This document shows, piece after piece, positions 4,328 to 12,250 of a DNA stretch of 64,000 bases. Both the position numbers and the translations under genes were made by a program. This DNA is from Duganella sp. CF458. Lineage in GTDB: Bacteria > Pseudomonadota > Gammaproteobacteria > Burkholderiales > Burkholderiaceae_D. Under the pieces are notes generated by a model. That model searched no databases, was not told the origin of the DNA, and saw nothing but the letters and a program-made list of their open reading frames with translations. The stretch lies in assembly GCF_900113115.1 (NCBI RefSeq), contig NZ_FOOF01000007.1:1-64000 (forward strand), written 5' to 3'. The first letter of the stretch is position 1. Each line of letters opens with the position of its first letter.

Positions 4328-4359
4328 AAGGCCTGATAGTTCGCTATCAGGCCTTTTTT
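4328..4359 (+). terminator. Intrinsic terminator behind the tRNA-His scar
   Basis: A perfect 12-bp stem (AAGGCCTGATAG/CTATCAGGCCTT) with a TTCG tetraloop is followed by a T-run. It fits the native terminator of the tRNA-His transcript. The minus-strand HxlR gene stops inside it (4347), and the A-run on its far side lets it terminate that gene too. Confidence 0.8.
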
Positions 4360-4673
4360 GTTTGCGCGTACTTCTCGCCCCAGCGCGCGACCGGTCCCAG
4401 CGCAGCATTCAGCTCCGCGCCCAGTTCAGTCGTCGAATACTCGACACGTGGCGGCACCTCGGGGAATACTTCGCGCCGTACGATGCCATCGGCTTCCATT
4501 TCCCGCAGTTGCTGAATCAGCATCTTCTCCGTAATGTCGCCCAGCACCCGGCGCAAGCCGCCCGGTCGCACCGGCCCTGCCTGCAGTTCATACAGGATTA
4601 GCGCCTTCCATTTGCCGCCAATGACTTCGAAGGCCGGGCCGATACCGCAGTTATAAGGTTTGCTCGCAGCCAT
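4347..4673 (-). CDS. HxlR-family transcriptional regulator
   Basis: The product is 108 residues from the ATG at 4673, chosen because GTGGAG stands seven bases upstream; a frame reaching 4712 exists. The winged-helix HxlR signature is clear: an N-terminal Cys in NCGIGPAFEVIGGKWKALIL, then ITEKMLIQQLREMEADGIV (recognition helix) and RVEYSTTELG (wing). HxlR proteins are dimeric repressors or activators often sensing electrophiles or redox state through that Cys. It is divergent from the reductase gene at 4788, its likely target, with inverted GTACC half-sites between them. Confidence 0.85.
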   Translation of the reverse strand: MAASKPYNCGIGPAFEVIGGKWKALILYELQAGPVRPGGLRRVLGDITEKMLIQQLREMEADGIVRREVFPEVPPRVEYSTTELGAELNAALGPVARWGEKYAQTKKA

Positions 4674-4701
4674 TGAATCTCCACAAAACTTACCAAATGG
4701 G

Positions 4702-4728
4702 AAGTACCACACAAAAAAGTAGGTACTT
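4702..4728. promoter_or_regulatory. Candidate HxlR operator
   Basis: A perfect inverted repeat (AAGTACC at 4702-4708, GGTACTT at 4722-4728) lies between the divergent HxlR and reductase genes, with another GGTACC at 4741. GTAC-containing inverted repeats upstream of the regulated gene are usual for HxlR regulators. The repeat overlaps a possible -35 (TTGCCG at 4727) for the reductase. Confidence 0.55.
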
Positions 4729-4787
4729 GCCGAGGCTTATGGTACCCCAAGATACAGCAACTCCCACCCACATAAAGGAGTTTGAAA

Positions 4788-5660
4788 ATGAAAAGCATTG
4801 CTGTCATTGGCCTAGGCCAGATGGGCTCAACCCTCGCCCAGCTTTTGCTCGACGCTGGCTTTGAGGTGCATGTTTGGAACCGCTCTCCCGGCAAGGCCAC
4901 TGCCTTGGTCGAAGCCAGCGCGCGCCTTGCCGCGTCGCCTGCGGATGCGGCAGCCCGCGCACAATTCGTCGTGATGTGCGTGCATGATCACGCAGCGGCG
5001 ATGGAGATCCTTTCGCAGCAAGGGGTTTGGCATGCGCTTGAAGGCAAGGCGCTGCTGCAGTTCACCACCTTCAGCCCGCAGGAAGCTGCGGCGGCTTCCG
5101 AGGTGGCGCGCGCACACGGCGTGGCCTACCTTTCCGGCGCCATCCAGGTCGCACCGGAACAGATGGGCAAGCCGGATACCACCATCTTGCTGTCCGGCCC
5201 GCGCAACGCGGTCGATGGCGCCAACGCCGTGCTGGCAACCTTTGGCGGCAACGTGGCATGGCTTGGCGAAAGCGCCTCGGCCGCACCCACCATGGACCTG
5301 GCGACGCTGTCCTTCGTGTACGGCGCCACGGCCGGATTCCTGCAAGGTGCGGCACTGGCGCAGCGCGAAGGCCTGGACCTGAAGCGCTACGGCGAGATCG
5401 TGCACGCCATGTCGCCTTCCTTCGGCGAATTCCTCCAGCATGAAGCCAAGGTGATCGACAGCGGCGATTTCGCCATCTCGCAAAGCCCGCTGTCAATCTC
5501 GGTCGACGCCACGCGCCGCATTGATGGCGCAATGCGCGAGGCAGGCCTCGACGATGCACTGCCGGCTGTCATCGCGCAATTGCTGGAACGCGCCGTGGCA
5601 AAGGGCTTGGCCGGGGAAGAGCTGGCAGCACTGGTGAAGGTGATCGACGCAACATCCTGA
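4788..5660 (+). CDS. NAD(P)-dependent oxidoreductase, imine-reductase/6PGDH-like
   Basis: The product is 290 residues. The ATG at 4788 has AAAGGAG seven bases upstream; a TTG at 4782 is too close to that site. The N-terminal Rossmann domain (IAVIGLGQMGSTLAQLL, GxGxxG) and the all-helical C-terminal domain place it in the beta-hydroxyacid dehydrogenase / 6-phosphogluconate dehydrogenase superfamily. The catalytic Lys of hydroxyisobutyrate dehydrogenases (GxGxxxKxxxN) is missing. In its place is MDLATLSFVYGATAGF, as in imine-reductase-like relatives, so reduction of C=N or a small carbonyl is more likely than hydroxyacid oxidation. The divergent HxlR neighbour suggests induction by a small reactive molecule. 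Confidence 0.8.
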   Translation: MKSIAVIGLGQMGSTLAQLLLDAGFEVHVWNRSPGKATALVEASARLAASPADAAARAQFVVMCVHDHAAAMEILSQQGVWHALEGKALLQFTTFSPQEAAAASEVARAHGVAYLSGAIQVAPEQMGKPDTTILLSGPRNAVDGANAVLATFGGNVAWLGESASAAPTMDLATLSFVYGATAGFLQGAALAQREGLDLKRYGEIVHAMSPSFGEFLQHEAKVIDSGDFAISQSPLSISVDATRRIDGAMREAGLDDALPAVIAQLLERAVAKGLAGEELAALVKVIDATS

Positions 5661-5662
5661 GG

Positions 5663-5691
5663 TTGGTAATTTTGCATTCCTGAAATATAAT
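5663..5691 (+). promoter_or_regulatory. Sigma70-type promoter of the pseudokinase operon
   Basis: TTGGTA (5663-5668), a 17-base spacer and a perfect TATAAT (5686-5691) lie 28 bases before the GTG start at 5719. The -10 lies inside the perfect inverted repeat CTGAAATA/TATTTCAG (5680-5699), so a repressor bound there would block the promoter. Confidence 0.65.
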
Positions 5692-5699
5692 TATTTCAG
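5680..5699. promoter_or_regulatory. Palindromic candidate operator over the -10
   Basis: Perfect 8-bp arms (CTGAAATA, TATTTCAG) flank a TAAT centre and embed the -10 hexamer. It is too A+T-rich for a good terminator and has no following T-run, so an operator reading is preferred. The cognate regulator is unknown. Confidence 0.5.
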
Positions 5700-5718
5700 A
5701 AAACCTTCCGGGACCCGT

Positions 5719-6642
5719 GTGGACTTCCAGTCTTTGAATTGCCCGCAATGTGGCGGGGTGCTACCGCGCCAGGCGATATGGCGCACCATCGTGTGCCCGT
5801 ATTGCACCGCCACTGTCACTCGCTCCGAATCAGTCGTCGACATCGCCCGCTTCCATGAGGCACTGCAGCGTTTCCAGAACGATCCTGCCGGCCAGGATGC
5901 CCGCTGCGGCGAACGGCGCTACCGCATCATCCGCCAGTTGTACCAGGGGAGCGGCTCGCGCGTCGTACTGGCGCGGCGCTGCGGGCGACTGGGTGAGCAC
6001 GTGGTACTCAAATACGCCGACGCTGCAAAGCTGGAGCGCGAGCACGATGTCCTTCGCCAGCTTCAGGCAGCCGAGATTCCCGGCTCCGCCTATTTTTCTC
6101 AGCGCCTGCCGGAATCCATCGCACTGGGCCCGGACGGCAACGGCGGCTCAATACTCGTGCTGCGCCACCCACCGGGCTACTGGGGCAGCCTGGCCGAAGT
6201 ACACCGTCATTACGGCAGCGGGCTCGATGCGCGCCACGTGGTCTGGATGTGGCGCCGCTTGCTCGAAGTACTGGCGCATGCACACACCGTCGGCTGGATC
6301 CACGGCAGGGTAAGCCTGGAACACTTGCTGGTACACCCGAGCGACCATGGCGTCTTCCTGGTGGGCTGGTCGGGTGCAAAACGACTTGCCGACCAGTCGC
6401 TCGACCTGCTGCAATCGGCCTGGAGCATGCGCGCCCTGCTGGCTGGCCAAAGCAGCGGTGACGATGCTCCGGCAATTCCTGCATCGGTCCCTGCACCGCT
6501 GGCGGAAGTCTTGCACCGCGCCTGCTCGGATGGGCACTGGCTGCGGTCGCATTGCGCCTCGGGCCTGCACCATGCAGTCACGCGCGCGGCAGAAGCCGCA
6601 TTCGGCCCGCCACGCTTCGTTCACTTCCACCCAACACCTTAA
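5719..6642 (+). CDS. Zinc-ribbon protein-kinase-like protein, probable pseudokinase
   Basis: The product is 307 residues from a GTG start. A zinc ribbon at the N-terminus (C8, C11, C26, C29) precedes a kinase-like domain from about residue 65. The Gly-rich loop (QGSGSRVVLA), the VLK lysine and an alphaC-type Glu helix are recognisable. The catalytic loop reads IHGRVSLEHLLV where kinases have HRDLKPENILV, so the catalytic Asp, the Lys and the Mg-binding Asn are all replaced. The DFG position reads VGWSGAK. Phosphotransfer is therefore doubtful, and a nucleotide-binding scaffold is likelier. It opens an operon with a vWA protein and a PurA-like enzyme, 19 bases before the former. Confidence 0.7.
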   Translation: MDFQSLNCPQCGGVLPRQAIWRTIVCPYCTATVTRSESVVDIARFHEALQRFQNDPAGQDARCGERRYRIIRQLYQGSGSRVVLARRCGRLGEHVVLKYADAAKLEREHDVLRQLQAAEIPGSAYFSQRLPESIALGPDGNGGSILVLRHPPGYWGSLAEVHRHYGSGLDARHVVWMWRRLLEVLAHAHTVGWIHGRVSLEHLLVHPSDHGVFLVGWSGAKRLADQSLDLLQSAWSMRALLAGQSSGDDAPAIPASVPAPLAEVLHRACSDGHWLRSHCASGLHHAVTRAAEAAFGPPRFVHFHPTP

Positions 6643-6661
6643 TCGTATCCAGAGGAGCAAA

Positions 6662-7639
6662 ATGGGACACGGTAACTACTCCTTCTCAGCACACGCCGCC
6701 CTGGTCGCCGACCGGGCATCCGCGTCGCGTACCGAAGTATTCCAGCAACGTAACTGCCATCCGCTGATGAACCCAAAGGGCATCAAGATGCGCGAGTCGC
6801 GCGACAATGCAGATCACCCGAATTCGTTGGGCATCGTCTTCGCGCTCGACGTCACCGGCTCGATGGGCGATATCCCGCAGCAGCTGGCGACCAAGGAGCT
6901 GCCGACGTTCATGCGCCTGCTGATGGCATGCGGCGTCGCCGATCCGCAAATCCAGTTCATGGCGATCGGCGACGCCGTTTCGGACAACGCGCCGCTGCAG
7001 GTGGGCCAGTTCGAATCGACTGCGGAACTGATGGACCAGTGGCTCACCTGGAGCTACATCGAAGGCGGTGGCGGCGGCTCGGGCGAAGAGAGCTATGAAC
7101 TGGCCTTCTACATGGCAGCACAGCACACGGACCTCGATTGCTGGGCCAAGCGCCGCAAGAAAGGCTACCTGTTCGTGACCGGCGATGAGCTGCCCTACCC
7201 TGCGATATCACGCCACCAGATTGAAGCCCTGGTTGGCGACCGCCTGGACCAGGATTTGCCGATCGAAGAAGTGATCGCCGCCGCTTCCGAAACCTTCCAC
7301 CTGTTCTTCCTGATCCCTGACCTGCATCGCCGCCAGCGTTGCGAAGCGCGCTGGCGCGAGCTGCTGGGCGACCACGTGATCTGCATGGAAGATCCGCAAG
7401 ATGCCTGCGCCGTTGCCGCTTCCATCGTTGCGCTGACCGAAGGTGCCTTGCCGAAGCTGGATGCCTTGCCTGGCGTGCTGTCCGGCGAAGGGATCGATGG
7501 CGGCCGCGTTTCCGCCATCGTGCGCAGCCTGCGTCCGTATGCGGCCCTGCTGGATAAGGGCACGGCGCACGATATTCCGGTGTCGTCGCCAGCGGTGGCG
7601 ATCGGCGAACGTCCATGGTGGAGACGTCTGTTTGGTTGA
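6662..7639 (+). CDS. vWA-domain protein
   Basis: The product is 325 residues. The ATG at 6662 has AGAGGAG just upstream; the frame is open further upstream but overlaps the pseudokinase. A von Willebrand A domain begins with the MIDAS motif DVTGSMGD (D63) and continues with FMAIGDAVSD and the Gly-rich GGGGGSGEESYELAFYMA loop. A further strand (KGYLFVTGDELPYP) completes the metal site. The C-terminus is a helical region ending ERPWWRRLFG. There is no signal peptide, so it is cytoplasmic. Intracellular vWA proteins usually scaffold metal-dependent complexes with ATPases or kinases. Here the partners should be the adjacent pseudokinase and PurA-like protein, whose start overlaps this gene's end. 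Confidence 0.8.
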   Translation: MGHGNYSFSAHAALVADRASASRTEVFQQRNCHPLMNPKGIKMRESRDNADHPNSLGIVFALDVTGSMGDIPQQLATKELPTFMRLLMACGVADPQIQFMAIGDAVSDNAPLQVGQFESTAELMDQWLTWSYIEGGGGGSGEESYELAFYMAAQHTDLDCWAKRRKKGYLFVTGDELPYPAISRHQIEALVGDRLDQDLPIEEVIAAASETFHLFFLIPDLHRRQRCEARWRELLGDHVICMEDPQDACAVAASIVALTEGALPKLDALPGVLSGEGIDGGRVSAIVRSLRPYAALLDKGTAHDIPVSSPAVAIGERPWWRRLFG

Positions 7640-8954
7640 GGGCAGGATCGTATCGGTCATCGGGCTCGCCTTCGGTGACTGCGGCAAAGGCTTGTTCACG
7701 GACTATCTTTGCCGCGCGAAGTCGGCGCACACCGTCGTGCGCTTCAATGGCGGCGCGCAAGCGGGACACAACGTGGTCCTGCCTGACGGCCGCCATCACA
7801 CTTTCTCGCAATTCGGCGCCGGCACGTTCAATCCCGGCGTCGCGACCGTCCTGTCGGCGCCGGTGGTGGTTCACCCCACTGCCCTGTTGGTCGAGGAAGC
7901 GTACCTGCGTCGCGCAGGCGTCAGCGACGCGCTGGATCGCCTGTTCATCGATGCACGCTGCCTCGTCACCACGCCCTACCACGAAGCTGCCGGCCGCCTG
8001 CGCGAACGCGCGCGTGGCGCCGCTGCACACGGAAGCTGCGGCGTAGGTTTCGGCGAAACGGTAAGCCACGCGCTGGCCTATCCCGATCAGGCACTCCGCT
8101 ATGCCGACCTGCTGTATCCCTCGCACGTCCGCGACAAGCTGGAAACCATGCGCCATAGCCTGCGCGCTGCGCTGCCGGAAAGTGCGCTGGCGCTGAATCC
8201 GCAAGATGCAGCCATCCTGGACGATGCCGGTTTTGGCCTGCTGTGGCTCGAGCACGCGCAACGCCTCATTGCCAAAGTACCGCCCTCAACGCCCGACCAA
8301 ATCGCCGCGCAGCTGGCGCGCCCTGGCTGCATCGTGATGGAAGGCGCGCAGGGCATGCTGCTCGACGAATGGCACGGCTTTCACCCGCATACGACGTGGA
8401 GCAGCACCGGGCCCGCCGCCTCAGATGCCGCACTGGCTGGATATGGCCTGTCCGAGCGCGTGACGCATCTCGGCGCCATGCGCAGCTACCTCACGCGCCA
8501 CGGCCAAGGCCCGATGCCGACCGAAGACCAGACCCTCGATGGGTTGGGGGAACCGCATAACGCCGACAGCGGATGGCAAGGCCGCTTCCGCCGCGGCCAT
8601 CCGGACGCGGTGCTGCTGCGCTACGCATTAGCCGCCGCTGGCCGCATTGACGGCCTGCTGGTCAGTCACTTGGACGCCTTCGACAGCGGGGCCCGCCTGC
8701 GCTGGGCCCACAGCTACAAAGTTCACGGCCGCGAAGTCCGCGATCTGCCGCTAGCAGGCAGCCCGGATTTGTCGCACACGGCGGCACTGTGCGAGCTGCT
8801 CAACGCCGCAAACCCACATTACGCGGCCACAGCCATCGCCAACGCCGACGCATTCATCCACGAACTGCAAGCCATCGCAAACCTGCCAGTCATCCTCGGC
8901 TCGCGCGGCCCGACCTGGCGCGATGTTGCGTCCCCTCCTGGATATAGGGCGTGA
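7632..8954 (+). CDS. Divergent adenylosuccinate synthetase (PurA) paralogue
   Basis: The product is about 440 residues from a TTG at 7632, eight bases after GGTGGAG and overlapping the vWA stop, which implies translational coupling. The frame extends upstream without a better start. PurA features kept: GDCGKG (D16, K19) for GDEGKG, GGAQAGHN (H46) for NAGHT, EGAQGMLLDEWHG (~237), TRHGQGPMPTED (~288) and a C-terminal SRGPTWRD for STGPDR. Changed are the IMP-binding TTGRGIGP region (here SCGVGFGE) and the guanine-contact TKLD (here SHLD). The catalytic Asp/His pair is present but nucleotide recognition has drifted, so a different purine or acceptor amine is likely. It is probably not the housekeeping PurA. 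Confidence 0.75.
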   Translation: MVEGRIVSVIGLAFGDCGKGLFTDYLCRAKSAHTVVRFNGGAQAGHNVVLPDGRHHTFSQFGAGTFNPGVATVLSAPVVVHPTALLVEEAYLRRAGVSDALDRLFIDARCLVTTPYHEAAGRLRERARGAAAHGSCGVGFGETVSHALAYPDQALRYADLLYPSHVRDKLETMRHSLRAALPESALALNPQDAAILDDAGFGLLWLEHAQRLIAKVPPSTPDQIAAQLARPGCIVMEGAQGMLLDEWHGFHPHTTWSSTGPAASDAALAGYGLSERVTHLGAMRSYLTRHGQGPMPTEDQTLDGLGEPHNADSGWQGRFRRGHPDAVLLRYALAAAGRIDGLLVSHLDAFDSGARLRWAHSYKVHGREVRDLPLAGSPDLSHTAALCELLNAANPHYAATAIANADAFIHELQAIANLPVILGSRGPTWRDVASPPGYRA

Positions 8955-8984
8955 TCCGACCGCATTGCCGCCTAAGCTGGCGGC

Positions 8985-9689
8985 ATGGATACCTACCCAG
9001 TCATTGAATTCCGCCGCTACACCACTGTAGAAGGCGGGCAGGCAGCGTTCTCACGCTATTTCGAAACCCTGTTCCCGGAAGCCTTCCAGCAACTGGGCGC
9101 GCTGGCGCTGGGCCAGTTCACGGAGCGCGGCAATCCGAACAGTTTCCTCTGGATGCGCGGCTTCACCAGTTGGGAGCAGCGCGCGGTAGCCAACGCCGCC
9201 TTCTACTACGGCCCGGTATGGCGCGAGCACAAGGCCACGCTGAACGGCCTGATGACCGACAGCGACAACGTCCTCCTACTGCGCCCCTTGCGGCCCGGCA
9301 GCGGCGTGCCGGTCATGCCAGCCGTCGATCCGGTGATGGAACCGGACGGTGCGCAGGGAGAAGCCGTCGCCATCCTCTGCACCGTGAAGCCCGGACAACT
9401 GGACCGATTCGTCGAGCTGGCCGAGCCGGCCTTCGCTGCATGGAACAAAGCCGGCTGGCGCGACGCCGGCATCCTCGTCACGCTCGACATGCCGAACAAC
9501 TTCCCGCAGCTGCCGGTACGCGGCGACGGCCCGCACCTGGTCTGGCTCGGCATTGCCCCACCTGGCAGCCCGCCAGCGCCGTTGGAAGCACTCACTGACG
9601 CCGCGCGCGACCTGTTGCACGAGCCGCCCGAACGCATCCTGCTGCGCCCAACCCATCGTTCGCGACTGCGTTACAACACAAAAATATAA
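8985..9689 (+). CDS. NIPSNAP-family protein
   Basis: The product is 234 residues from the ATG at 8985. The N-terminal half (YPVIEFRRYTTVEGGQAAF, then FLWMRGFTSWEQR and FYYGPVWREHKATLNGLM) is typical of NIPSNAP dimeric alpha/beta-barrel domains. The second half (VAILCTVKPGQLDRFVELAE, LVWLGIAPPG) looks like a second, diverged copy of the fold. There is no signal peptide. NIPSNAP and related ABM folds are small dimeric enzymes or sensors, and no reaction can be assigned. It follows the PurA-like gene by 30 bases on the same strand and may be the fourth gene of that unit. The Shine-Dalgarno is weak. Confidence 0.65.
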   Translation: MDTYPVIEFRRYTTVEGGQAAFSRYFETLFPEAFQQLGALALGQFTERGNPNSFLWMRGFTSWEQRAVANAAFYYGPVWREHKATLNGLMTDSDNVLLLRPLRPGSGVPVMPAVDPVMEPDGAQGEAVAILCTVKPGQLDRFVELAEPAFAAWNKAGWRDAGILVTLDMPNNFPQLPVRGDGPHLVWLGIAPPGSPPAPLEALTDAARDLLHEPPERILLRPTHRSRLRYNTKI

Positions 9690-9756
9690 ACCACAGCCGT
9701 TGTGCTACAGCATTTGTTTTGGAGATAAAATAACCACTCAGAGAAACATTGCGCAC

Positions 9757-10209
9757 ATGAAAGAAGTCATGTCTGAGTTGAAAGATCTATCCACGTACAG
9801 CAAAGACACCCCGGTAGGCCTGCCCACGGTTGGTGGCCGCGCTGGTGTGTTCGTCCCCACCGACCTGTTCGACCTCGCGGGTTCCGAGAACATCCGCAAG
9901 GGCGCAGGCATTGTCGGCTTCGGCAACCCGGACGGTTCGCTGACGATCTACTTTGAAGCCAACCGCTTCGACGACTCCGCCCTGCACAAATGGGAGAACA
10001 AGGCGCGCAAGGCCTACGACCGCATGGTCGCCGTGGCGCCGACCGTGTCGAAAGCAAAGATGGATGCCAAGTTCCTGGAACAGGTTGGCTACATCGATGG
10101 CGCCGGCATTACGCTGAAAGAGCCGGATCGCCTGAATGACTGGCTGAACCTGTCCAACGCCCTGGATACGGCACCGGAAGCGGCGGTGGTACTTTGGGGT
10201 AAAAAATAG
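9757..10209 (+). CDS. Conserved-looking hypothetical protein
   Basis: The product is 150 residues from the ATG at 9757. An alternative ATG at 9769 has AAAGAAG upstream and cannot be excluded. It is soluble with mixed alpha/beta character: VGGRAGVFVPTDLFDLAGSENI, GAGIVGFGNPDGSLTIYFEAN, and a C-terminal helix-rich part ending AAVVLWGKK. No motif was recognised. It is the last gene before the terminator at 10231, in the same direction as the pseudokinase-vWA-PurA-NIPSNAP genes, so it may share their transcript. Confidence 0.6.
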   Translation: MKEVMSELKDLSTYSKDTPVGLPTVGGRAGVFVPTDLFDLAGSENIRKGAGIVGFGNPDGSLTIYFEANRFDDSALHKWENKARKAYDRMVAVAPTVSKAKMDAKFLEQVGYIDGAGITLKEPDRLNDWLNLSNALDTAPEAAVVLWGKK

Positions 10210-10230
10210 CGGACGAGCAATAGTCCTACA

Positions 10231-10261
10231 AAGGCATCGGCGACTCTCCGATGCCTTTTTT
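10231..10261 (+). terminator. Intrinsic terminator of the plus-strand unit
   Basis: The stem AAGGCATCGG/CCGATGCCTT is followed by a T-run, 22 bases after the stop at 10209. It closes the transcription unit that begins at the promoter near 5663. Confidence 0.8.
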
Positions 10262-11497: not shown

Positions 11498-11833
11498 TCA
11501 GTCCAGTTTCCAGGCGTAGTCCACCTTGGTCCAGGTCTCGGCCGGTGCGCCATCCTTGGTGCCAGGCTTGAATTTGCAAGCGCTCAGCGCCTTCAATGCA
11601 GCCTTGTCCAGGTTCTTGAAGCCGGACGACTTGTCCAGCTTGGAATCCTTGACCTCGCCGTTGGCGGCCACCAGGAAGGACATGCTCACGGTGCCCTGCT
11701 CTTCATTCATCAGGGACGCTTTAGGATACTCAGCCTTGCAATTCTTGGCATCGAACGATGCCGGTACTTCAGCCGCGAAGGCCGAGGCGCCCATTGCGAG
11801 CGCTACAGCCATAACACTCAACTTGGTCATCAT
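11498..11833 (-). CDS. Small periplasmic TonB-C-domain protein, copy A
   Basis: The product is 111 residues with a signal peptide (VMAVALAMGASAFAA). The mature ~90 residues form a single TonB C-terminal-like domain: FDAKNCKAEYPKASLMNEEQ, then VSMSFLVAANGEVKDSKL and ALSACKFKPGTKDG. Two Cys could form one disulfide. There is no TonB membrane anchor or Pro-rich linker, so direct coupling to ExbBD is unlikely. It may bind receptors or peptidoglycan-associated partners in the periplasm. It is a tandem duplicate of the next gene, about 80% identical over the mature region by my own count. Confidence 0.75.
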   Translation of the reverse strand: MMTKLSVMAVALAMGASAFAAEVPASFDAKNCKAEYPKASLMNEEQGTVSMSFLVAANGEVKDSKLDKSSGFKNLDKAALKALSACKFKPGTKDGAPAETWTKVDYAWKLD

Positions 11834-11865: not shown

Positions 11866-12198
11866 TTACAGGGACCAGACGTAGTCGACCTTGGTCCAGG
11901 TCTGGGCTACCGCGCCGTCCTTGGTGCCTGGCTTGAATTTGCAGCCGGTGATGGCCTTGACGGCAGCCTTGTCCAGGTTCTTGAAGCCGCTGGATTTATC
12001 CACTTTGGAATCCATCACTTCGCCGGAAGCCGAAACCAGGAAGGACATGGTGACCTGGCCTTGCTCTTCATTCATCAGGGAAGCCTTCGGGTATTCAGCC
12101 TTGCAGTTCTTGGCATCGAATACTGCCGGGGTTTCAGCCGCGAATGCGGAGGCGGAAACGATGGATGCTGCGATAAAACCAATCAGACGCTTGTTCAT
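11866..12198 (-). CDS. Small periplasmic TonB-C-domain protein, copy B
   Basis: The product is 110 residues from the ATG at 12198 (MNKRLIGFIAASIVSASAFA signal peptide); an ATG at 12210 is also in frame. The mature domain is nearly the same as copy A (AVFDAKNCKAEYPKASL, GQVTMSFLVSASGEVMDS, GCKFKPGTKDGAVAQ), while the signal peptides differ more. The 32-base gap suggests a shared transcript. Like copy A it lacks the TonB anchor. A window this rich in TonB-dependent receptors makes a receptor-related role tempting but unproven. Confidence 0.75.
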   Translation of the reverse strand: MNKRLIGFIAASIVSASAFAAETPAVFDAKNCKAEYPKASLMNEEQGQVTMSFLVSASGEVMDSKVDKSSGFKNLDKAAVKAITGCKFKPGTKDGAVAQTWTKVDYVWSL

Positions 12199-12250
12199 TT
12201 CAAATCCCAATCAAAAAATTATGAAAAACTGCGGGTCTGTACCCGATTAA

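Follow-up and report, generated by a model that had tools for sequence, protein, structure and literature searches.

The first 64,000 nucleotides of contig NZ_FOOF01000007.1 from Duganella sp. CF458, referred to here as the window, contain three consecutive genes on the plus strand, termed K, V and P, which encode respectively a kinase-like protein, a von Willebrand factor A (vWA)-like protein and a relative of adenylosuccinate synthetase (PurA). Only 19 bp separate K from V, and P begins within the end of V. It is near certain that K-V-P is a true module, and P belongs to a third large clade of the adenylosuccinate-synthetase fold, with apparently intact activation chemistry, a seemingly rebuilt acceptor site and two partner proteins; the clade extends across many bacterial phyla and large phages. 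To our knowledge this fold is known for two reactions, those of PurA and PurZ, both of which use aspartate. P may represent a third kind of ligase on the fold and form the core of a mobile module. The reading that it is a GTP-dependent enzyme joining a nucleotide with some amine that is not free aspartate, in company with V and K, is given about an even chance of being correct, and it turns what P joins, and to what, into a testable question.

The association of the three genes was followed from two starting points with profile searches. From V, the genomes of 84,980 species gave at least 561 relatives, the best 80 of which were analysed. P is found in 73 of these 80 loci, in every case within 300 bp of V, whilst K is found in 70 and all three genes in 66, with the order K-V-P in 64. 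The best 80 are skewed towards close relatives, in that, on a count by eye, 31 are Betaproteobacteria by title and 18 of these are Variovorax; they also include, again by title, Acidobacteria, Verrucomicrobia, Fibrobacteria, Myxococcota, Chloroflexi, Eremiobacterota, Actinobacteria, Bacteroidota and Desulfobacterota. When P was searched for in IMG/VR, 350 relatives emerged, and the best 80, most of them on contigs longer than 100 kb, were analysed. V is present in 76, always upstream of P, at a distance of up to 300 bp in 52 and up to 1,500 bp in 65. K is present in 64, lying upstream of V in 54 (K-V-P) and downstream of P in nine (V-P-K), and 63 loci hold all three genes. In three of the four viral loci that have no V (L139, L164 and L167), P lies near the end of the locus. 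An earlier description of this DNA, made from the sequence alone and called here the original prediction, had proposed co-occurrence of the three families beyond close relatives as its test, and the families do occur together from either starting point, in bacteria and in phages alike.

Named phage records include 225 that match P, 207 that match V and 190 that match K. Mycobacterium phages, counted by the first word of the name, dominate these matches, with 189, 188 and 189 records respectively. Some of the remaining P matches (Listeria, Salmonella, Staphylococcus and other phages, which have no V match) are probably ordinary PurA. Phage Pleione carries the three in the order K, V and P, with a small gene between V and P, and both Vibrio phage Va1 and Rhizobium phage Y65 carry V-P. 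The phage loci L007, L015, L153 and L174 have V and P with no detectable K within the fetched flanks, and from such phages V-P may be the minimal unit. A search of 399 Burkholderiales genomes with the P profile returns four proteins at 389–560 bits, that of the present genome included, and the next matches listed, at 248 bits or less, are taken to be canonical PurA. V adjoins P in all four carriers, and V itself occurs in three of 150 Burkholderiales genomes, this one among them. The module is rare and patchy within one order yet very broad overall.

By sequence P is a member of the PurA fold family, matching PF00709 at 215 bits, which is over the cut-off. P is also matched by five NCBIfam models of adenylosuccinate synthase, each time below the cut-off, reaching 152 against 395.6 bits for TIGR00184 and 180 against 402 bits for NF002223, and its best family match is PHROG 1211, at 263 bits. 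A normal PurA, scoring 598 bits, is encoded in the same genome. A tree was built from 42 P sequences, 30 PurA sequences (all from one phylum) and a single PurZ on a very long branch; in it the P clade is split from PurA with branch support of 100/99, the bootstrap being not fully settled; plasmid, chromosomal and phage members are intermixed within the clade.

The active site was compared across 166 P sequences, made up of 86 from bacteria, plasmids and named phages (the window included) and 80 from IMG/VR. Residue roles in PurA and their E. coli numbers, apart from R303, are those that we take to apply, mapped via the PurA of this genome. The equivalents of the catalytic residues Asp13 (164 of 166, with two gaps) and His41 (165, with one gap) are retained, as are those of Lys16 (164), Gln224 (165) and the guanine-contacting Asp333 (163), so that all five are common to PurA and P. 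Unlike PurA, P has exchanged a number of positions for another near-invariant residue, namely Asn38 for Gln (163 of 166), Thr129 for Cys (159), Val273 for His (165) and Thr301 for Gln (157), and it has further family-specific residues in His133 (158) and Asn310 (163). Moreover, Lys331 is changed, no conserved Arg stands at the columns of PurA R143 and R303, and the aspartate loop is a residue shorter. In PurA, R303 contacts both the O2' of inosine monophosphate (IMP) and aspartate (PMC8342488). Since the activating residues of PurA are conserved and those of its aspartate and IMP sites are replaced, P is read as still activating an oxo group on a nucleotide, probably with GTP, and as having a new amine-acceptor site together with a new phosphate side of the nucleotide site. 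In the proposed mechanism P would, like PurA, use GTP to phosphorylate a purine-like nucleotide on its oxo group, and would then hand the activated nucleotide, which is probably not plain IMP, to an amine other than free aspartate.

The simplest rival to such a mechanism is that P is a regulated spare adenylosuccinate synthetase, which raises the AMP supply, for example during phage infection. The PF00709 match and the retention of the catalytic Asp and His are what would be expected of such an enzyme. The proposal is nevertheless improbable in view of the normal PurA in the same genome, the failure at every NCBIfam cut-off and the family-wide replacement of residues in the aspartate loop and the IMP site. 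Cut-offs, residues and clade likewise dispose of P as an ordinary PurA paralogue. The original prediction had described a divergent paralogue that keeps the catalytic Asp and His and is altered where the nucleotide is recognised, and the family alignment and the tree bear this out.

PurZ is, like P, a phage-borne paralogue of PurA, and the original prediction, which cited it as a maker of modified purines, had the present trio make or sense an unusual nucleotide. A PurZ is marked by Ser (or Gly) in place of the catalytic Asp, and it has Ser there in all 147 phage sequences of one analysis (PMC12884076), whereas P keeps the Asp, both in the window protein (Asp16) and in 164 of the 166 relatives, the rest being gaps. 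P also fails the PurZ model NF038379, with 45 against 300 bits. The tip of the aspartate-contacting loop is strictly conserved between two PurZ proteins (PMC8342488), in contrast to the rebuilt loop of P, and no DatZ- or MazG-type family is seen among 25 of 48 neighbour families. A PurZ identity is rejected for P, which is not PurZ-like at the deciding residue.

The closest annotated family, PHROG 1211, corresponds to phage genes named 'PurA-like' or '2-aminooxy adenylosuccinate synthetase', and a mycobacteriophage gene so named stands in a K-V-x-P order in Pleione. The named function is not supported by the residues, and neither the bacterial members nor the conserved partners are described there. 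In mycobacteriophage C1 genomes (for example L006:6001-7329), the P genes that RefSeq calls '2-aminooxy adenylosuccinate synthetase' keep the Asp that PurZ lacks. An NAR survey of 2026 (PMC12884076) places 481 phage PurA homologues in a tree of 767 sequences, where the PurZ group numbers 151 and the E. coli PurA group 251, and part of the remaining phage homologues in that survey probably corresponds to the P clade. In a literature search of open PubMed Central, no description of the K-V-P trio was recognised.

V is the near-constant partner of P. Its motif reads DVTGSMG, and D63-x-T65-x-S67 followed by D175 within GDE gives a vWA-like pattern. Across 108 aligned V sequences M1, G2, D63, Q113, E118, E143 and D175 are invariant. 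Because the viral starts in this alignment had been picked by a pattern that includes Gly, residue 2 was recounted without the pattern, taking the Met nearest to the projected start. Among the proteins with such a Met close to that start, Gly follows it in 75 of the 76 bacterial and in all 74 of the viral ones, and Met-Gly is found in 149 of 156 V proteins. Two of the other seven are truncated, four show at the projected start some residue other than Met and then Gly, and in L061 the nearest Met is 13 residues away. The V protein of L131 has an unusual start residue, Ile, before a conserved Gly-Gly at the projected start. The same procedure returns mainly Leu and Thr at position 2 of K (25 each of 106) and mainly Lys in P (23 of 99, with Gly in six). 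A Gly at position 2 normally leads to removal of the Met and leaves a free N-terminal glycine. The proposal is that V, vWA-like and metal-binding, binds peptides and that its free N-terminal glycine would lie at or near the site of the reaction; the N-terminus may instead have a plain structural role.

The fold of V is less readily placed. None of the 108 relatives gives a vWA match with Pfam or PDB sequence profiles. A comparison of the V profile with 22 vWA domains in hhalign, at default settings, gives a probability of 77.7% and an E-value of 1.9e-5 over only 18 columns around the motif, against 0.1–0.4% for the control pairings (K and P with vWA, and V with P and K). With loosened settings the alignment of V with vWA spans residues 55–252 at low confidence, and D175 falls near the TDG strand. 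Of the vWA protein with an intact metal ion-dependent adhesion site (MIDAS) that had been reported from the sequence, the MIDAS motif stands and the fold is without a match in the Pfam or PDB sequence profiles. In several myxobacterial and related loci V is multiplied, flanking P on both sides in L062, L064 and L065 and lying in tandem in L061, L066 and L073. The presence of two or more paralogues suggests that V may act as a heterodimer at such loci. On a Rhodovulum plasmid (L011:7001-8029) V is annotated as a 'TonB-dependent receptor', and by eye its C-terminus seems fused to an unrelated tail; P was not found near this V and, with no P nearby, the module may be decaying there.

K combines a front domain with a degenerate protein-kinase-like domain. 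The K protein of the window keeps the VAIK Lys and the C-helix Glu, and has HGR...H for HRD...N and GWS for DFG, such that R, H and G occupy the places of the HRD Asp, the catalytic-loop Asn and the DFG Asp of active kinases. On its own this protein matches no Pfam family at an E-value of 0.01, and the profile of its family matches PknA and CK2 chains. Among 95 relatives Pkinase is matched in 48, DnaJ in 29 and several zinc-ribbon models in eight members or fewer each. The HRD Asp is present in 12 of the 95, the catalytic Asn in nine (with His in 85) and the DFG Asp in 49, of which 10 are bacterial and 39 viral; 80 K proteins of an earlier set, which overlaps this one, give 24, five and 14 respectively. 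No member of either set has all three residues together, and so the pseudokinase proposed at the outset is sustained, with single catalytic residues surviving in some relatives.

The front end of K takes two forms. A CxxC-CxxC ribbon is detected by pattern in 36 of 46 bacterial and in none of 49 viral K proteins; an HPD motif is found likewise in 10 of the former and 37 of the latter, and no K has both. Judged by sequence, the K family consists of pseudokinases whose front ends are of two interchangeable kinds, one being a J-domain of the Hsp70-recruiting type. The pseudokinase would bind ATP or a protein, whilst the zinc ribbon, or the J-domain through Hsp70, would recruit clients or the module itself, and K, V and P may act as a complex.

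A vWA-like and a kinase-like protein within one operon are also reminiscent of the Ter/TerY stress modules, which we take to consist of a TerY-type vWA protein and a kinase with a PP2C phosphatase or Ter genes nearby. TerD, TerC, TelA and PP2C are not recurrent among the neighbours, including 25 of 48 and 25 of 123 neighbour families. Moreover, K is a pseudokinase, and in place of a phosphatase or Ter genes there is a PurA-like enzyme, for which the available accounts of Ter modules, as far as they go, have no place. That K-V-P is part of such a module is extremely improbable; with no recurrent Ter genes near K-V-P this identity is rejected, and the TerY link drawn in the original prediction reduces to an analogy.

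At loci other than that of the window, some surroundings of the module show links to nicotinamide adenine dinucleotide (NAD). Neighbouring genes were predicted by a simple longest-open-reading-frame rule, and some are spurious. NUDIX is the only neighbour family found in at least three V groups, occurring in 25 of 93 loci and nine of 21 V groups. By BLAST, at more than 60 bits, NUDIX genes are found at 24 loci; at 18 of these the gene lies no more than 400 bp from the module, and at one it is 4 kb off. Of six NUDIX neighbours tested, five carry an NrtR winged helix and all six match the NCBI model of an ADP-ribose-responsive repressor below its cut-off. NrtR-like regulators belong to a family that senses ADP-ribose (PMC9503650). 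The NrtR-regulated NAD/ADP-ribose conflict operons of the same source resemble K-V-P in that a NUDIX-HTH regulator and a vWA protein share one type of neighbourhood; they differ in being centred on ADP-ribosylglycohydrolase, and the main text of that source has no PurA or adenylosuccinate.

In phages the recurrent neighbour is NAMPT, the only family found in at least four P groups of phage loci (seven of 80 loci and five of 66 P groups). It is confirmed by Pfam in four of 114 unbiased neighbours and in one further protein, from L116, that was added by hand. Among 45 phage contigs picked by hand out of the 80, mostly the longer ones, NAMPT is present in 12, in 11 of them over the cut-off. With distances worked out by hand, it lies within 1.2 kb of the module in six of the 12 contigs, where 0.45 would be expected, and within 4 kb in eight, where 0.75 would be expected (p of about 2e-6 and 6e-8 respectively). 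NAMPT is closer to the module than chance and not commoner than is usual in phages, since the published rates for NadV are 22% of medium-sized and 33% of jumbo phages (PMC9503650). The phage contigs L154, L155 and L138 have the NAMPT gene between V and P. Other neighbours are isolated, comprising one NAD synthase, one NADAR protein, two NUDIX proteins and one Tad3, a Thoeris inhibitor. The product of the module, or its trigger, may be linked to NAD or ADP-ribose stress in many hosts.

The same neighbours would also suit a nucleotide signal, and they lend weight to a serious rival, in which P makes a free small molecule by placing another amino acid or amine on a nucleotide. The product would be a modified nucleotide or an alarm signal, and V and K would act as scaffold or sensor. 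This is close to the view of the original prediction, and it accommodates the retained residues of PurA chemistry and the changed acceptor loop as well as the NrtR-like regulators and the NUDIX or NAMPT neighbours. It leaves the near-invariant Met-Gly of V and the alternation of J-domain and zinc ribbon in K unexplained, and no receptor or effector family is recurrent among the neighbours, again including 25 of 48 and 25 of 123 families. Such a role is held to be possible, on a tentative footing.

A role in conflict between hosts and phages has also to be considered, in which the bacterial module is an anti-phage defence and the phage copies are counter-measures, or stolen weapons used in conflict between phages. 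The sporadic spread within Burkholderiales, the mixing of bacterial and phage copies in the tree and weak PADLOC kinase matches of K are in keeping with this, as are scattered defence-model matches among the neighbours (among them HmaA for two proteins, and BrxHI, DpdF and PsyrT for one each). Against it, a coarse test on 113 neighbours from 39 bacterial loci, in which 73 PADLOC families were matched, shows no family that matches more than three proteins, and the one that reaches three, PDC-S07, matches a NUDIX regulator in its first row. With no recurrent defence family among these neighbours a standard defence island is rejected, and all three genes are present in 63 of the 80 viral loci. 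The explanation is doubtful as a whole. Of the phage conflict suggested earlier, the carriage of the module by phages keeps the idea plausible, and the neighbours of the bacterial copies do not support it.

Several observations weigh against the preferred reading, that of P as a nucleotide–amine ligase working with V and K and linked to NAD. P was not found in seven of the 80 loci reached through V, and only one of these (L074) ends just after V at the end of a contig. Ten of 80 bacterial and 16 of 80 viral loci lack K, which is accordingly not always needed. Within P, the R143 and R303 columns border insertions and deletions and may be misaligned, the Thr301 column also adjoins an indel, and Arg320, kept in 162 of 166 sequences, could stand in for R305 and bind the aspartate carboxylate. 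The vWA call for V depends on the motif and one profile–profile comparison, the fold being unconfirmed. As to NAD, NAMPT is confined to the 12 of the 45 phage contigs examined; five of the eight contigs with NAMPT close by share the V-P-K order and may reflect one event, which if counted once leaves four of eight; and no NrtR or NAMPT gene lies beside K-V-P in the window, where the neighbouring genes were read by eye.

The preferred reading can be sharpened into a form in which the acceptor is a protein. P would couple the C6 oxo position of a purine, perhaps of an NAD- or ADP-ribose-related nucleotide, after activation by GTP, to the N-terminal glycine of V or to an amine of a client presented by V and K. 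This form fits three otherwise separate features, the lost aspartate site, the N-terminal glycine of V and the chaperone-like partners, and it is unlikely to be right. If it were true, the product would be a purinylated protein, a post-translational modification built on adenylosuccinate-synthetase chemistry and common to bacteria and large phages.

At the locus itself (Table 1) the genes lie where they were first placed, and the zinc-ribbon kinase-like K and the PurA-like P are confirmed. A promoter-like site and a hairpin flank the five genes K, V, P, N and U. Both sites of the proposed plus-strand unit are present, and neither type exceeds what shuffled sequence gives, with two promoter-type sites in the region against 1.6 expected and five terminator-type sites against 6.7. 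N passes the NIPSNAP cut-off by a narrow margin (24.1 against 22.3 bits). Pseudoduganella violaceinigra (L017), the closest relative, with 93% identity in V, has retained all five. Of the 93 bacterial, plasmid and phage loci, BLAST searches of the fetched flanks found N and U in this one and not in the remaining 92. N and U are lineage-specific and K-V-P alone is the conserved unit, so that the five-gene operon first proposed reduces to three genes.

Table 1. Positions in the window of the K-V-P genes, their principal motifs and the flanking features.
Feature	Positions	Strand	Remarks
Sigma-70-like promoter, TTGGTA-17-TATAAT	5663..5691	+	27 bp upstream of K; weak, 2 sites versus 1.6 expected in shuffles
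K, zinc ribbon and degenerate protein-kinase-like domain, 307 residues	5719..6642	+	GTG start
K, zinc ribbon, C8-x2-C11 ... C26-x2-C29	5740..5805	+	J-domain (HPD) instead in many relatives
K, kinase-like region (residues 65-227)	5911..6399	+	HRD and DFG residues lost
V, divergent vWA-like protein, 325 residues	6662..7639	+	
V, N-terminus MGHGNYS	6662..6682	+	Met-Gly near-invariant in family
V, MIDAS-type motif DVTGSM (residues 63-68)	6848..6865	+	
V, G174-D175-E176	7181..7189	+	Near TDG strand of vWA domains (low-confidence part of alignment)
P, PurA-like ligase (predicted), separate clade, 440 residues	7632..8954	+	TTG start; overlaps V stop by 8 bp
P, GDCGKG (residues 15-20)	7674..7691	+	Catalytic Asp16 and Lys19 kept
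P, GGAQAGH (residues 40-46)	7749..7769	+	Gln43 for PurA Asn38; catalytic His46 kept
P, HGSCG (residues 133-137)	8028..8042	+	Family-specific His133; Cys136 for IMP-contacting Thr129
P, TRHGQGP (residues 288-294)	8493..8513	+	His290 for PurA Val273
P, WQGRFR (residues 315-320)	8574..8591	+	Rebuilt aspartate loop, one residue shorter
P, SHLD (residues 345-348)	8664..8675	+	Guanine motif TKLD; Lys lost, Asp kept
N, NIPSNAP-like gene	8985..9689	+	Outside conserved module
U, gene of unknown type	9757..10209	+	Outside conserved module
Hairpin resembling intrinsic terminator	10230..10258	+	Such sites not above chance in region

Directly upstream of K lies a gene for a reductive-aminase-like oxidoreductase (4782-5660, plus strand; PF03446 and PF21761), and divergent from it is a gene that by eye encodes an HxlR-like regulator (4347-4712, minus strand). 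Further downstream, two adjacent genes on the minus strand (11498-11833 and 11866-12210) encode highly similar short proteins, which by eye look secreted and resemble a TonB C-terminus, and represent a tandem duplication.

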